This document shows positions 1,775 through 33,614 of a stretch of 64,000 bases of DNA, piece by piece. This DNA comes from an uncultured Bacilli bacterium. GTDB taxonomy: Bacteria; Bacillota_I; Bacilli_A; ML615J-28; CAG-313. The DNA lies in the NCBI GenBank assembly GCA_944326155.1, contig CALVCV010000006.1, positions 1 to 64,000 of the forward strand. Direction: 5' to 3'. The notes under the pieces were generated by a model that saw only the letters and a list, made by a program, of their open reading frames with translations, was not told the origin of the DNA and made no database searches. Each line of letters begins with the position of its first letter. Within the stretch, counting starts at the first letter, position 1. A program made the translations under genes and the position numbers.

Positions 1775-2266
1775 ATGATTAAAATCGAAAAAGTTAGTGA
1801 TTATATATTTGAAGAGCAAAAAAATGAATTTAATTTGATTATAGGCAGTTATGCTTCTTATAATGAATACTATTTAGTAGAGATACTTTTTGACAATTCT
1901 AAAATAAAAATTGGGTTGCAGGTTATCACTGGTGGTATTTCTCCTAATGTTATAATTAATAATAATAAAATATTAATTACAGCTGGACAATTTTTTTACA
2001 TTTGTAATAAAAATTGTGATGTTATAAAAGAGTATTGCTGTGATGCATCTGTATTTGAGATGAAATTGTTATTAAATTATTTAATTGTGTATAATGAAAT
2101 TGATATTATTTGTTTTGATAAAAATATGGATTTTTTGTGGAAAAGGGAATTTGACGATTTAATTGATATATGCTTAATTATGGATGATTTTATTAAATTA
2201 AGTTGTAATAATGAGGATATTATTATTAATTTAAATGACGGTTCTTTTAAATTTATGAATTCATAG
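1775..2266 (+). CDS. Probable immunity protein for the preceding toxin
   Basis: 163 aa. The start is ATG 1775 because GGAG at 1765-1768, inside the toxin's last codons, is correctly spaced; a TTG at 1763 is possible but lies upstream of that site. The first base of the ATG is only 2 nt past the toxin stop, the tight coupling usual for toxin-immunity pairs. The protein is acidic, cytosolic, without signal peptide or membrane helix, and built of short beta-strand-like segments with several Cys (ICNKNCDVIKEYCCDAS) and a WKREF turn, as in small WD/beta-propeller-like immunity proteins. I do not recognise the family; the function is inferred from position. Confidence 0.5.
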   Translation: MIKIEKVSDYIFEEQKNEFNLIIGSYASYNEYYLVEILFDNSKIKIGLQVITGGISPNVIINNNKILITAGQFFYICNKNCDVIKEYCCDASVFEMKLLLNYLIVYNEIDIICFDKNMDFLWKREFDDLIDICLIMDDFIKLSCNNEDIIINLNDGSFKFMNS

Positions 2267-2287
2267 GATATATTTATAAGGTGTAAT

Positions 2288-2353
2288 ATGAATTTAATTA
2301 TTGATTTTATAAAAGAAGTAAAAAAAGTATATAAAGTAAATGAAACAAGGTAA
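2288..2353 (+). CDS. Tiny ORF between immunity gene and NTase gene (21 aa), possible gene remnant
   Basis: ATG at 2288 is preceded by AAGGTG. It encodes a Lys-rich helix (MNLIIDFIKEVKKVYKVNETR would be the whole product). It may be the beginning of a second, deleted immunity gene; nothing shows that it is functional. Confidence 0.2.
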   Translation: MNLIIDFIKEVKKVYKVNETR

Positions 2354-2377
2354 TGGTTTTAATAGATAATTAGAATT

Positions 2378-3238
2378 ATGGGACAAGATCATTTAATAAA
2401 TAAATTGAAGTACAATATTAATATTATATATTTTGTGAAAAAAATTATAAATGAAACAATTGTGCAAGAAAGAATTAAAGAAATAGTATATGATAAATTT
2501 ACTTGTTTAACTAATCAAGAATTATCTATAAAAAGATTTGATAATTCATTTAAATACATTATAAATAATATTCATCAAACATTTAATATAGAAATGATTA
2601 TTCAATCTTATTTTATGTTAACAAATGAACTTTTTGATAATGACATCGCTACAAAATTAATAGAACTATATTACAAAAATATTGATGTTGCCACACATTC
2701 TTTAGCAGCTTTACTTCATCTTTATATTATTAATAATATAGAAAAAAATAATGTAGAATTTGCTTTCTTAATATCTAATTACATAATGTTAAAAAAAGGT
2801 AGATGGTTTTTGATGCCTTATGAATATTGTCATAATGATTATAGACAGTCAATTGAAAATAATGATTTATCTAGTTTGATTAGAATTTTTTATGATATAG
2901 AATTAGTTAAAAATGACAAAAGACCGTGCTTATTATCAAGAGATGCAGTAATTAAAAAGGTAAAATCTTTAAAAAAAGAGTTACTCTATAATTATAATAT
3001 AGAGAATTTGTATTTGTTTGGTTCGTTTGCAAAAGGAAACAACACAGATAAAAGTGATTTAGATTTTGTTGTGATTTTTAATGAATCATTAATAAATAAA
3101 GAAAAAAATGATATGATTAATAACATGAAGAATTATTTGAGTAATGAGTTTGATTGTGATGTTGATTTATTAGATTTTAACTACGCACTAAATACTTTTG
3201 ATAAATCACAAATGGAATATTTAATTACATTAATATAG
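2378..3238 (+). CDS. Nucleotidyltransferase-domain protein with a helical, Fic-like N-terminal region
   Basis: 286 aa. The C-terminal ~95 residues are a minimal nucleotidyltransferase fold: GSFAKG at about 215-220, SDLDFVV at about 225-231 giving two catalytic Asp, and a third acidic strand CDVDLLDF near 270. The first ~190 residues are helical. The stretch ATHSLAALLHLYIIN, then about 12 residues later YIMLKKGRWFLMP and Y..SIENNDLSSLIRIFYD, has the spacing of the Fic core helices. The HPFxxGNGR catalytic loop between them is replaced by an unrelated sequence, so AMPylation activity by that part is unlikely. The ribosome binding site is weak. Fic-NTase fusions exist in bacteria; whether this one is a toxin, an antitoxin or an antibiotic adenylyltransferase cannot be told. 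It sits behind the toxin-immunity pair in the same orientation. Confidence 0.55.
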   Translation: MGQDHLINKLKYNINIIYFVKKIINETIVQERIKEIVYDKFTCLTNQELSIKRFDNSFKYIINNIHQTFNIEMIIQSYFMLTNELFDNDIATKLIELYYKNIDVATHSLAALLHLYIINNIEKNNVEFAFLISNYIMLKKGRWFLMPYEYCHNDYRQSIENNDLSSLIRIFYDIELVKNDKRPCLLSRDAVIKKVKSLKKELLYNYNIENLYLFGSFAKGNNTDKSDLDFVVIFNESLINKEKNDMINNMKNYLSNEFDCDVDLLDFNYALNTFDKSQMEYLITLI

Positions 3239-3245
3239 TTAATAT

Positions 3246-3290
3246 AAAGACTTTTGTACCAATGTGAATTGATGCAGGAGTCTTTTCCTC
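3246..3290 (+). terminator. Possible terminator after the NTase gene
   Basis: 7-bp stem AAAGACT (3246-3252) with AGTCTTT (3279-3285), a long 26-nt loop, then a T/C-rich tail. The long loop makes it weak. Confidence 0.4.
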
Positions 3291-3295
3291 TATAT

Positions 3296-3370
3296 GCAAC
3301 ATTTACAATGTAAACTATTAAACGTGCAACTTTTATAATTGAAACTATCAAATATGAAACATTACGCAGT
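3296..3370 (+). repeat. Five tandem 15-nt degenerate repeats
   Basis: The pentamer (G/T)(C/A)AAC recurs exactly every 15 nt, at 3296, 3311, 3326, 3341 and 3356, each followed by an AT-rich decamer; units one and three share about three quarters of their bases over a 30-nt double period. No ORF covers it. It looks like either the multiple transposase-binding repeats found at the ends of some insertion sequences or an iteron-like protein-binding array. No element is recognisable next to it. Confidence 0.5.
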
Positions 3371-3392
3371 ATACACACATTAAAGTACTATG

Positions 3393-3422
3393 AAAAGTCT
3401 TCTACTAATGAAGGCTTTTTTT
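3393..3422 (+). terminator. Rho-independent terminator
   Basis: 10-bp stem (3393-3402 with 3410-3419, one G-T pair), 7-nt loop, T7 tail. It stands after the 15-nt repeats with no gene directly before it, so it may end a lost gene or element. Confidence 0.65.
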
Positions 3423-3843
3423 GCATTTTAGGGGTATTTTCATCAATATAAAGTGAAGTGATAAGAAGTGCTATCAAGAGGATAAAGTCATTATTTATTA
3501 TAAAATAATATTAGAATAGGATAAAGTAAAGGATAGTATGTTGTAATATTAAATGAGAACACATAGTAGAAAGTATATTTAGAAGATATGTAAGTGGAGA
3601 TACCTTTTAACAAATGGTGAATGTCCCATACTGATAAACTAAAAAACAAGAAAAGAAGTTTGTTTTCATTAAGTACAATTTAAAGTAGGTTAAAAAAAAT
3701 ACATAGGAAATGCAATAGAGATATCCTAAGTATTATAAGTTAAAAAATATTTGATATAGTATAAACTAAATGAGTGAATTATAATAATATAAGAGGATTA
3801 TCAAAGATAGATAAAGGTAGATTTCAAGTAAATAGCAATTGGT
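3423..3843. other. Gene-less stretch
   Basis: About 420 bases without an ORF above roughly 30 codons, no hairpin-plus-T-run and no RNA gene that I can see. It is probably decayed coding DNA of the accessory region; no parent gene is recognisable. Confidence 0.5.
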
Positions 3844-23451: not shown

Positions 23452-23567
23452 GAAATCTCAACTTAGATACCTTCATCCAAGGTTCCATGGTGAACCAGGT
23501 CAGGTCATGATCGAAGCAGCCTTAAGCTAATGTAACTTGTGGGTGGGGGGATCTAAGTTGAGATTTT
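23452..23567 (+). ncRNA. ffs: Small-type signal recognition particle RNA (4.5S RNA)
   Basis: The conserved apical domain is visible: GGTGAACCAGGTCAGGTC, a short loop, then GAAGCAGCC, the Ffh-binding asymmetric and symmetric loops. The ends pair over about 16 bp (AAATCTCAACTTAGAT / ATCTAAGTTGAGATTT), and the 3' arm runs into T6, serving also as terminator. The length is about 115 nt, so there is no Alu domain of the long Bacillus scRNA. Together with Ffh it targets membrane proteins. Confidence 0.92.
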
Positions 23568-29734: not shown

Positions 29735-29762
29735 ATATATGTATAAGGAAGGAGGATCTAGC

Positions 29763-31367
29763 ATGTTTAACCAATTATATATTCAAACGGAATATTCTAT
29801 TTTGCAAAGTACATGCAAATTAGAGCCTCTAATGGAAGTTTTAGTAAATGATCATGTAGCATCTTGTGCAATTGTTGATGAAGGCACGATGTATGGTACG
29901 ATTAAATTTTATAAAGCTTGTAAAAAAAATAAGATTAAACCCCTAATTGGTCTAAAGGTCGATTATCTATATGATGATGTAAAAAGTAGTATTTTACTTT
30001 ATGCTATAAATACCTTTGGTTATAAAAATTTAATGAAAATATCAAGTAGAAGTAGGTTAAATGAAGGACTTGTTGATTTTGAATATTTATCCAAAGCATC
30101 CTTAGGCTTACTTGCTATTATTCCTTTTAATGAATCGATTCTAATGAAATATCATATGCATCATGATTCATCAACTGCTTTACAAATAGCAGAACTCTTA
30201 AAACACACTTATGATATATGTTATATTGGCTTACCAATTCCACAAGCCTTAAAAGAGGTTGATTTTGATGAAATCTATTATTTTTATCATAATGAAGGCT
30301 TTCCAATAGTTGCCTTGCCCAAAGTTAGTTATATTAATTCAACAGACATTGATGCTTACATTACGGTTAAATCAATTCGAATGAATGCGACTTTATATGA
30401 GCCAAATGATGCGGAAAAGTATTACTACTTGCTTTTGCAAGATGAGGCAGAATTTTTATATAAAGACTACCCTGATTTAATATATGAAACTGAAAGAATC
30501 GCATCAATGTGTAATGTTGAAATTGAATTTGGTCATTATCAACTACCATCTTATGAATTTGGACTTGATACCAAAGCATACTTACAAGAGTTGTGTCTTT
30601 TTGGCCTAAAAAAAAGGTTACAAAATCTAAGTTATCCTTATGATTACCAAGCATATTCAAAGAGGTTAACTAAAGAATTAGAAATTATTCACCAAATGGG
30701 ATATGATGATTATTTCTTAATCGTTTATGATTATGTAAAGTTTGCGAAAAAAAATAATATTTTTGTTGGTCCCGGAAGAGGATCAGCACCTGCTTCTTTA
30801 GTGAGTTATTCTCTTGGCATTACAGAAATTGATCCGCTTTATCACGAATTATTATTTGAAAGATTTTTAAATCCAGAAAGAATTTCGATGCCAGATATTG
30901 ATATTGATTTTCCTGATGATAGACGTGATGAAGTTATTCGTTATGTGGGTAGTAGATATGGTAAAGAACGAGTAGCCCATATAGTTACTTTTGGTACTTT
31001 TAAAATGAAATTGGCCATTAATGATTGTGCTAGAGTCTATAAATTACCAGAACAATATATGAAGGAAATTAATAGATGTTTGCAAAATGATACTTCATCA
31101 AAGATAGTAGTATCATTAAAAGATGCTATCAATAATAATCCTGAATTACAACAACTAATGGATCAATTTGATAGCATTAGAAAAGTAGTTGAAATTGCTT
31201 CAACCATTCAAGGTATGCCACGAAATATTTCAACACATGCGGCAGGAATAGTAATCACAAAATATGATTTGGTGAACTATACACCACTTGATGAGGGACT
31301 TGATGATATATATCAGACCCAATATGAAGCTAGTGATTTAGAGGATTTAGGACTTTTAAAAATGGAT
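29763..31367 (+). CDS. dnaE: DNA polymerase III alpha subunit DnaE, exon 1
   Basis: First 535 codons. ATG 29763 is taken because AAGGAAGGAGG precedes it; an ATG at 29739 lies before that site. The N-terminal PHP domain has lost metal ligands: the usual HxH at the start is YIQTEYSILQS here, so proofreading by PHP is unlikely. The polymerase core has GPGRGSAPASLVSY (near residue 336) and PDIDIDFPDDRR (near 377, two catalytic Asp). The exon ends exactly after the codon for D in GLLKMD, at 31367. Unspliced message would run only six more codons to a TAA. With exon 2 the protein is 1012 aa, near the short end for DnaE. It is the replicative or lesion-type polymerase of low-GC bacteria. Confidence 0.93.
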
Positions 31368-32180
31368 GTGCGAATTGTTTGTTAATGAAAAAAGCTAGAA
31401 ATAGAAACAAGTTAACAGAATAAGTAAAAAGATACTTATTTAACTATTAGTTTGATTAGGATGGTGAAATTCCATCTACGAGGCAAGGCTGATGCCTCAC
31501 TCCCTGAGACTCCGATATGCTTTTTAGTCTTAAAGCGAAAAAGTATAAAGCTCGGTGAAGGCGGCTAAAACGAATTCTTATTAATAAGAAAACAAAGTAA
31601 GTCGGGGGTCCTATAAAAGTAATATGCTGACACACCAGGAACCGTCGTAGGAAAGGCTCATAAAAAATTTCTATTAGAAAAGGTTGCAATGCTAGTATTA
31701 TCCGTTGCTAGCATGTTTATATCAAAAAGATATAAGTTCTTTTTTCTTCAGCAATAAAAAAAAGAATGGCCTATGAGTTAAAGACGGCAGCTAAGTTACT
31801 ATAGTAAAAGGATAAAACGAATGGAACAATTGAGCCTCGAAAGAAAATGGTAAGATGTTTAAGCATTGATGTTTCTAATAAGTAGGAAATGACTTATGTA
31901 TTCGAGAGTCAGCAGCCCATAGTACTGTTGAAGCGGTGTAATGACCGCCAAGGGAAGGGGCATAGCCAATAATACAATTATATCAAAATAAAAAATAATT
32001 TATTGTAATACCTTAATTTGATAAAAAAATCGTTTCTATTTTGATATAACTGAATAGTAGTTGAAATAACTATTATTAATGGTGAAACGCCGTATGCGGT
32101 GAAAGTCGCACGTACGGTGTGAAGGAGGGGAAAAGAGCACCTAGCAGGTAAGGCTGAGGCTGACTCTTACCTATTCCTAT
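31368..32180 (+). mobile_element. ORF-less group II intron inside dnaE
   Basis: 813 nt. It starts GTGCG (group II consensus GUGYG) and ends AT (consensus AY). Domain V is at 32087-32120 (CGCCGTATGCGG-TGAAAG-TCGCACGTACGG core, with AGTCGC bulge region) and domain VI follows (AGGTAAG...CTTACCT stem, 32147-32172), with a likely branch-point A at 32173, 7 nt before the splice site. Domain IV is a bare AT-rich hairpin with 13-bp perfect arms (31978-31990 with 32037-32049). No ORF of intron-encoded reverse transcriptase/maturase size exists. Exon pairing: EBS1 in the loop of a 7-bp hairpin (31690-31714) and EBS2 at 31614-31620. Removing it joins KMD to FLGLKNLTNIA in frame. Confidence 0.95.
32087..32120 (+). 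ncRNA. Group II intron domain V (catalytic hairpin)
   Basis: 34-nt hairpin with outer stem CGCCGTA / TACGGTG, the GAAA-type apical loop (GTGAAAGT) and the expected bulge, the most conserved part of group II ribozymes and directly diagnostic. Confidence 0.93.
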
Positions 32181-33614
32181 TTTCTAGGTCTTAAAAACTT
32201 AACTAATATTGCGAAAACAATTGAACTAATTCAAAAAGATAATCCGTCTTTTGTCTTACCTAAAGTAGAAGATGATTCAAATACATATATGATGCTTGCA
32301 AAAGGCGATGTAAGTGGTGTTTTTCAATTAGAATCTGAAGGAATGAAAAAGGTAATTATAAATCTTAAAACATCAAGTTTTGATGATATTGTTCATGCCC
32401 TTGCCTTATATCGTCCAGGACCAATGAGCATAATTCCACAGTTTATTAGAAGAAAATTTAAAGAAGAAAAAGTAGAATATCCTCATCCTGATTTAGAACC
32501 AATTTTAAAAGAAACATATGGTATGATTGTTTATCAAGAACAAATCATGTTAATTGCTTGCAAATTTGCGGGATATAGTCTTGGTAGAGCTGATATCCTA
32601 AGAAGAGCTGTATCAAAGAAGAAAAAAGAAGTCTTAGAACGTGAAAGAGAAAGCTTTGTTAGTTCCTCTATTGCTCAGGGTTATTCTGAACACGATGCTA
32701 ATGTAATTTATGATTATATCGTTAGATTTGCTGATTATGGTTTTAATAAAGCACATAGTGTTTCTTATGCTAAAGTAGCCTATTTGACAGCTTATTTAAA
32801 ATGTCATTATTTTAAATATTACTTTTCAACTTTAATGACATCATTTATGGGAAGCACAACTGATATCTTAGATTACACAAAACAATTACTTGCCAAAAAT
32901 ATCAAAGTAAATGGTCCATCAATTAATAAAAGTAATGATATTTTTAGTGTTTTCGATAATGAAATTTATTTTCCACTTAGCATCATTAGAGGTCTTGGTA
33001 TAGTAAAAACAAATGAAATTTTAATAGAAAGAAAAAATAAAATTTTTAGTGATTTTGAGGATTTTGTTAATCGTTGTAAAAATATACTATCTTTTTCTTT
33101 AATTGAAAATGTGATTTATAGTGGGGCTTTAGATGAGTTTCATTTATCTAAAAAAGCCATGATTGAAAGTTATCAAAGAATTATTGAAAAAAATACCTAT
33201 ACTTTTATAAAAGACGTTGTGAATAAAAATTATATTAGTGAAGAATATAGTTATGGTATTTTAAAAGAAAAAGAATTAGAAGTTTTAGGTCTTAATTTAC
33301 AATATGACTTTTTTAAACAGTTTAGTGGACTATATGAAAAATATCATATGGTTAAAATTGCTAAATTGCAAGTAAATAGAAAAAGCACAACAATTGGTAT
33401 AATTAAAAAAATTAAAGAAATTAAAACAAAACAACAAGAAAGCATGGCTTTTATGGAGATTGAGGATGATATATCCACTATTGAAGTGGTGGTATTTCCT
33501 AGAACGTATCAATCCTCATTACCACTTACAAAAGATATGATTATAATGGTAACAGGAAATTTACAAAAAAGAGAAAAAATGCAACTGGTTGCCGATGTGA
33601 TAAAAAAAATATAG
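32181..33614 (+). CDS. dnaE: DNA polymerase III alpha subunit DnaE, exon 2
   Basis: 477 codons in frame with exon 1. It begins FLGLKNLTNIAKTIELI, the continuation of the conserved finger motif, then GVFQLESEGMKK, ALYRPGPM, the YQEQIM block and FNKAHSVSYA of the polymerase domain. A helix-hairpin-helix region follows, and a C-terminal OB-fold (about the last 90 residues, IGIIKKIKEIKTKQQESMAFMEI). The clamp-binding end is not obvious. An internal ATG at 32289 could give a fragment only. It is followed 12 nt later by the glk gene with its own AGAGGTG. Confidence 0.93.
   Translation, partial: FLGLKNLTNIAKTIELIQKDNPSFVLPKVEDDSNTYMMLAKGDVSGVFQLESEGMKKVIINLKTSSFDDIVHALALYRPGPMSIIPQFIRRKFKEEKVEYPHPDLEPILKETYGMIVYQEQIMLIACKFAGYSLGRADILRRAVSKKKKEVLERERESFVSSSIAQGYSEHDANVIYDYIVRFADYGFNKAHSVSYAKVAYLTAYLKCHYFKYYFSTLMTSFMGSTTDILDYTKQLLAKNIKVNGPSINKSNDIFSVFDNEIYFPLSIIRGLGIVKTNEILIERKNKIFSDFEDFVNRCKNILSFSLIENVIYSGALDEFHLSKKAMIESYQRIIEKNTYTFIKDVVNKNYISEEYSYGILKEKELEVLGLNLQYDFFKQFSGLYEKYHMVKIAKLQVNRKSTTIGIIKKIKEIKTKQQESMAFMEIEDDISTIEVVVFPRTYQSSLPLTKDMIIMVTGNLQKREKMQLVADVIKKI

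Follow-up and report, generated by a model that had tools for sequence, protein, structure and literature searches.

The dnaE locus and its intron

The window analysed here, a 64-kb stretch of DNA, carries on its forward strand a dnaE gene for the alpha subunit of DNA polymerase III (Pol III) that is split into two exons by an 813-nt insert (31368-32180, +). Exon 1 (29739-31367, +; 543 codons) ends in ...GLLKMD, exon 2 (32181-33614, +; 477 codons and a stop) starts with FLGLKN, and both match NCBIfam Pol III alpha profiles. Joining 31367 to 32181 yields an uninterrupted DnaE of 1021 amino acids with no codon lost, and the two exon ends occupy consecutive profile positions (554/555 of TIGR00594 and 557/558 of NF004226). 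In an unspliced message, translation would stop after 548 codons.

The insert has all the parts of a group II intron and is of type IIB. It begins with GTGCG and ends with TAT, which places the GUGYG and AY boundary motifs of group II introns at the exact in-frame exon junction. An Rfam scan of the 64-kb window gives matches to RF02004 (group II D1-D4; 31439-31616, 59.2 bits, cut-off 34.5, E 4.5e-10) and RF00029 (domain V/VI; 32085-32180, 57.9 bits, cut-off 40, E 8.9e-9), both above the curated cut-offs, on the same strand and in the correct order. The predicted fold of the intron is 3.8 standard deviations more stable than that of shuffled sequences. Within the domain I core (31439-31616, +), the stretch TATAAAGCTCGGTGAAG near position 31546 contains the 4-nt bulge AAGC, of the AARC type that, near epsilon', marks subclass IIB (PMC12350094). 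Domain IV (31965-32078, +) consists of about 114 nt of AT-rich hairpins. The RF00029 alignment places the catalytic hairpin of domain V at 32085-32122 (+) and domain VI at 32124-32178 (+), with A32173, the eighth base from the 3' end, as the predicted branch point. The only other gathering-level Rfam match in the 64 kb is a bacterial small SRP RNA (RF00169, 40.6 bits, just over the cut-off) at 23464-23558.

None of the three forward frames is open for more than 46 codons within the intron, and a search of domain IV for a remnant of a gene for an intron-encoded protein (IEP) gave nothing beyond chance apart from an 18-nt stretch adjoining domain V. Since its own reverse transcriptase (RT)/maturase is absent, the insert is not a mobile group II retroelement. 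An earlier sequence-only reading of the locus had proposed an ORF-less group II intron in dnaE, with GTGCG and AT ends, a domain V hairpin at 32087-32120 followed by domain VI, a bare AT-rich domain IV and an exact KMD/FLGLKN junction. All of these features are confirmed here, and the covariance-model search that it suggested as a check gives the two Rfam matches described above. By every sequence feature examined the insert is a group II intron, and it is predicted to splice.

Position of the insertion and role of the host gene

The last residue of exon 1, D543, aligns to D555 in chain 2hnh, the solved E. coli Pol III alpha (numbering read off the alignment), and D401 and D403 of the E. coli protein align to an upstream PDIDID motif of the window DnaE. 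We take D401, D403 and D555 to be the three catalytic aspartates of the E. coli enzyme. The intron therefore splits dnaE at the codon boundary directly after the third catalytic aspartate.

The sequence-only reading had called dnaE the replicative polymerase gene and had named a second intact dnaE elsewhere as evidence against itself. No second dnaE is present in the genome; the remaining DNA_pol3_alpha matches all belong to a single PolC gene, which is intact and encodes about 1510 amino acids. DnaE is a replicase, as that reading held, but with a full PolC also encoded it is the second replicase here, one of two replicative polymerases. In B. subtilis, the polymerase activity of DnaE is essential beside PolC (PMC5627055), so the spliced dnaE message is presumably needed; by this analogy, the window dnaE is probably essential.

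Empty sites in relatives

The junction region of dnaE was matched in 39 of the 43 genomes of the order, and it is split in the window genome alone, the other 38 being uninterrupted. Four of these belong to the same genus; their unsplit dnaE genes are 75-81% identical to that of the window around the junction, and the blast alignments inspected show no gap there. When a sample of species genomes was scanned for the pattern GLLKMD-GTGYG, one of 395 genomes from the class of the window organism contained it, namely the window genome itself, as did one of 391 genomes from the Clostridia, that of the MAG RGIG8724 described below. Six pattern matches in viral contigs all lie in non-coding sequence or in unrelated reading frames.

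Most bacterial group II introns are found outside housekeeping genes (PMC4424553), and our full-text search of open-licence papers returned no group II intron reported for dnaE or for DNA polymerase III. The sequence-only reading, which had called an ORF-less intron in a polymerase gene rare, is supported with two corrections, the presence of PolC and the sharing of the site.

A maturase-encoding relative at the same dnaE site

Scanning species genomes for a domain V pattern identified 15 loci. Among them is a dnaE intron in the MAG Clostridia bacterium RGIG8724 from water deer colon (locus L089, JAGASD010000006.1), for which the papers searched contain no description. It interrupts dnaE at the same base (GLLKMD/GTGCG...TAT/FLGLRTL), matches the window intron in four blocks of 73-83% identity and, at 72% identity over the aligned core, is the closest relative found; seven other members of the family that were compared reach 53-59%. 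The two dnaE introns form one clade against the other family introns, with 98% ultrafast bootstrap support. They also share the design of the EBS1:IBS1 pairing, and each is present as a single copy in its genome. They differ in domain IV, where the 2875-nt RGIG8724 intron encodes, at the position of the 114-nt ORF-less domain IV of the window copy, a 620-aa IEP that scores above the TIGR04416 cut-off for group II RT/maturases. The window intron is ORF-less, as originally described; its site is shared with a maturase-bearing intron.

The dnaE genes of the two hosts are only 49% identical in nucleotides and 39% in amino acids, which argues against sharing of the intron by vertical descent, and the empty sites in relatives exclude that route as well. 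The introns are far more alike than their host genes, and they occupy one site in distant hosts, with empty sites in relatives. This shows horizontal spread of the intron to the dnaE site, and a maturase-bearing relative at the same base explains the origin of the window intron. Most likely, the window copy has since lost its protein gene. We infer this order, insertion before loss, by parsimony: loss in the window lineage is the simpler course because most of the family members found encode an IEP. Less probably, the ancestor was ORF-less and the IEP was gained in the RGIG8724 lineage instead, a course that fits less well with the predominance of IEP-bearing forms among the other members.

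Other sources of the intron were considered and rejected. Its blastn matches in phages and plasmids lie mostly in domain V, with some in domains I-III, and those in phages AR9, LPJP1 and MarsHill are much weaker than the match to the RGIG8724 intron (54% over the core for MarsHill). The introns of genome G054 reach 87% identity, confined to domain V, and are part of conjugative elements.

A group II intron also occurs at a second conserved site in dnaE, in a Clostridium MAG (JARKVD010000031.1; reverse strand, about 1972-3650 of the reversed locus), where it splits VYQ/EQVM in phase 1. Its ORF matches LAGLIDADG_3 (PF14528, 31 bits) and no RT, and an in-frame stop divides it from an upstream HTH-like ORF. 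Group II introns with LAGLIDADG proteins are known only from rRNA genes in an earlier review (PMC4424553). A further related, IEP-bearing intron (locus L123, G308:C92) appears to lie in a gene for a UvrD-type helicase, with an exon 2 of ...EEITAVTFTNQAAAEM.

Guide pairings and maintained helices

The predicted EBS1 (ATCCGTT; 31700-31706, +) forms part of the loop of a hairpin. It pairs in 7/7 positions, one of them a wobble, with IBS1 (AATGGAT; 31361-31367, +), the last seven bases of exon 1 (-7 to -1). At the equivalent position the RGIG8724 intron has GTCCATT, which likewise matches its own IBS1 in 7/7 positions. In seven of eight family introns the EBS1 neighbourhood complements the intron's own, differing IBS1; we estimate a chance expectation of about 0.2 per intron for a 6-mer complement.

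The predicted EBS2 (TTAGAA; 31674-31679, +) is complementary in 6/6 positions to IBS2 (TTTTAA, -14 to -9; 31354-31359, +). Just upstream of the same conserved stretch, the RGIG8724 intron has TAGGGG for an IBS2 of TCCTTA. Both exons encode GLLKMD, yet neither EBS2 suits the exon of the other host; each matches only its own. The chance probability of each match is about 1-3%. The EBS2:IBS2 pairing is tentative and less certain than EBS1:IBS1.

The window intron has 219 helix pairs in its centroid fold, of which the RGIG8724 intron keeps 178; in 41 of these, both bases have changed. When partners are slid as a control, 79-95 pairs are kept; the count is based on the window intron's own predicted fold, which favours it somewhat. 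The guide pairings and the 41 both-side changes indicate a maintained ribozyme, and 31368-32180 is very probably a functional splicing intron.

Two other readings can be weighed against these data. Since the genome is a draft, the intron might have been wrongly joined into dnaE during assembly or binning. We regard this as extremely improbable: a related intron occupies the same site in an independent MAG, the exons lie on one contig, in frame and with no base lost, and the guide sequences of the intron fit this very exon. Alternatively, the intron may be dead or dying, with dnaE effectively disrupted and the work done by PolC. The presence of PolC would allow this, but neither exon is broken by a stop and both align from end to end, the catalytic core is intact, as are the pairings at the splice site, the helices co-vary, and PolC does not make DnaE activity dispensable in B. 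subtilis; a dead intron is improbable.

Search for a maturase

The genome assembly comprises 1.44 Mb in 37 contigs and is estimated to be 96% complete. The only domain V detected in it is that of the dnaE intron. A search with RVT_1 returned one RT, and no group II maturase was found in the assembly. This RT is encoded by two overlapping ORFs (130 and 214 aa, with a possible frameshift) at about 31-33 kb of contig C10. A PRTase-CE protein is encoded next to it on the downstream side, the arrangement seen in type III-A retrons. Given its PADLOC match to RT_III-A and its PRTase-CE partner, it is not a group II RT. The IEP of the RGIG8724 intron, used as a query, has no match in the window genome or its genus, and among 41 relatives its sole match, in genome G015, is 35% identical. 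The whole-genome search for a maturase gene and further intron copies that the sequence-only reading had called for thus returns neither. Within the 96% complete assembly the genome encodes no IEP, and as far as this assembly goes the window intron is an orphan ORF-less intron.

The intron may instead splice with a maturase supplied in trans by another group II intron that the draft assembly has missed, in a chromosomal gap or on a plasmid or mobile element. ORF-less introns are rare in bacteria and nearly always live beside related IEP-bearing introns, with the Clostridium tetani intron C.te.I1 as the sole exception (PMC4424553), and a maturase gene could sit in the missing part of the 37-contig assembly or on an unbinned plasmid. 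The lack of a second domain V, a group II RT or a match to the RGIG8724 IEP in the assembly, and of any close IEP in the relatives, speaks against this source and makes it unlikely. An IEP usually serves only the intron that encodes it, which also counts against a maturase acting in trans.

Comparison with other ORF-less introns

C.te.I1 self-splices in vitro (PMC3919590) and shares with the window intron the orphan, ORF-less situation in a genome without an IEP. In contrast to the window intron, it is found in a surface-layer gene region, has a choice of several D5/6 motifs and a shifted 5' splice site, splices hydrolytically and has no EBS2. The layout of the window intron is standard, with one domain V/VI and a predicted EBS2, and its host is a replication gene.

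Six ORF-less introns have been described in phages (PMC12350094). Those of jumbo phages such as Listeria phage LPJP1 belong to the same RF02004 family and have related domains III and V. However, an IEP-bearing intron that is likewise present in LPJP1 may act in trans, the host genes are phage genes, and the similarity to the window intron is much lower than that of the RGIG8724 intron. That study has also reported related introns in phages AR9 and MarsHill, where they carry homing endonucleases and lie in the gene for the beta' subunit of the virion RNA polymerase.

Two recA introns of Streptohalobacillus salinus DSM 22440 (1715 to about 2530 and 2851-3728 of the reversed locus) belong to the same ribozyme family, lie in a conserved DNA-metabolism gene and look ORF-less; they differ from the window intron in their host gene and are only 53-55% identical to it. 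A weakly similar RT-like ORF, with 27% identity to a group II IEP, is encoded downstream of them. The combination seen in the window is unusual, in that an orphan intron of standard anatomy resides in a probably essential gene and has a protein-bearing twin at the same site.

Proposed mechanism and implications

We propose that a IIB-type intron, once equipped with an RT/maturase, was acquired horizontally and homed into the active-site motif GLLKMD/FLGL of dnaE. The protein gene would then have been lost from domain IV, and a splicing-only element would have persisted. In the transcript, the intron would fold into a ribozyme whose EBS1 and EBS2 hold the end of exon 1. The predicted branch-point adenosine of domain VI would attack the 5' splice site, exon 1 would attack the 3' splice site, and ligation would give an mRNA for full-length DnaE. 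As no group II maturase was found in the genome, folding must on this model be intrinsic or aided by the host, possibly through general RNA-binding proteins or helicases.

Under this model, an intron in a probably essential replication gene would splice in vivo without any maturase, by means of the ribozyme and general host factors. DnaE output would depend on splicing and could be tuned by it, and the intron, with its protein-bearing twin in another class, may represent domestication caught in the act. Because a maturase may be concealed in the draft genome, we assign this reading a probability of only about 0.4.

The window intron breaks two rules drawn for bacterial group II introns (PMC4424553), namely the company of an IEP and the avoidance of housekeeping genes, and the product of dnaE is not plausibly dispensable. 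In two classes of Bacillota, introns have homed to the active-site DNA of dnaE, whereas group II introns showed no bias towards conserved sites in an earlier analysis (PMC2814812). A pair of introns inserted at the same base, one with and one without its protein, permits direct tests of what a maturase contributes and of how splicing-only introns of the organellar type arise. If splicing is indeed maturase-free, the intron would rely on its ribozyme and on host factors, as organellar introns do.
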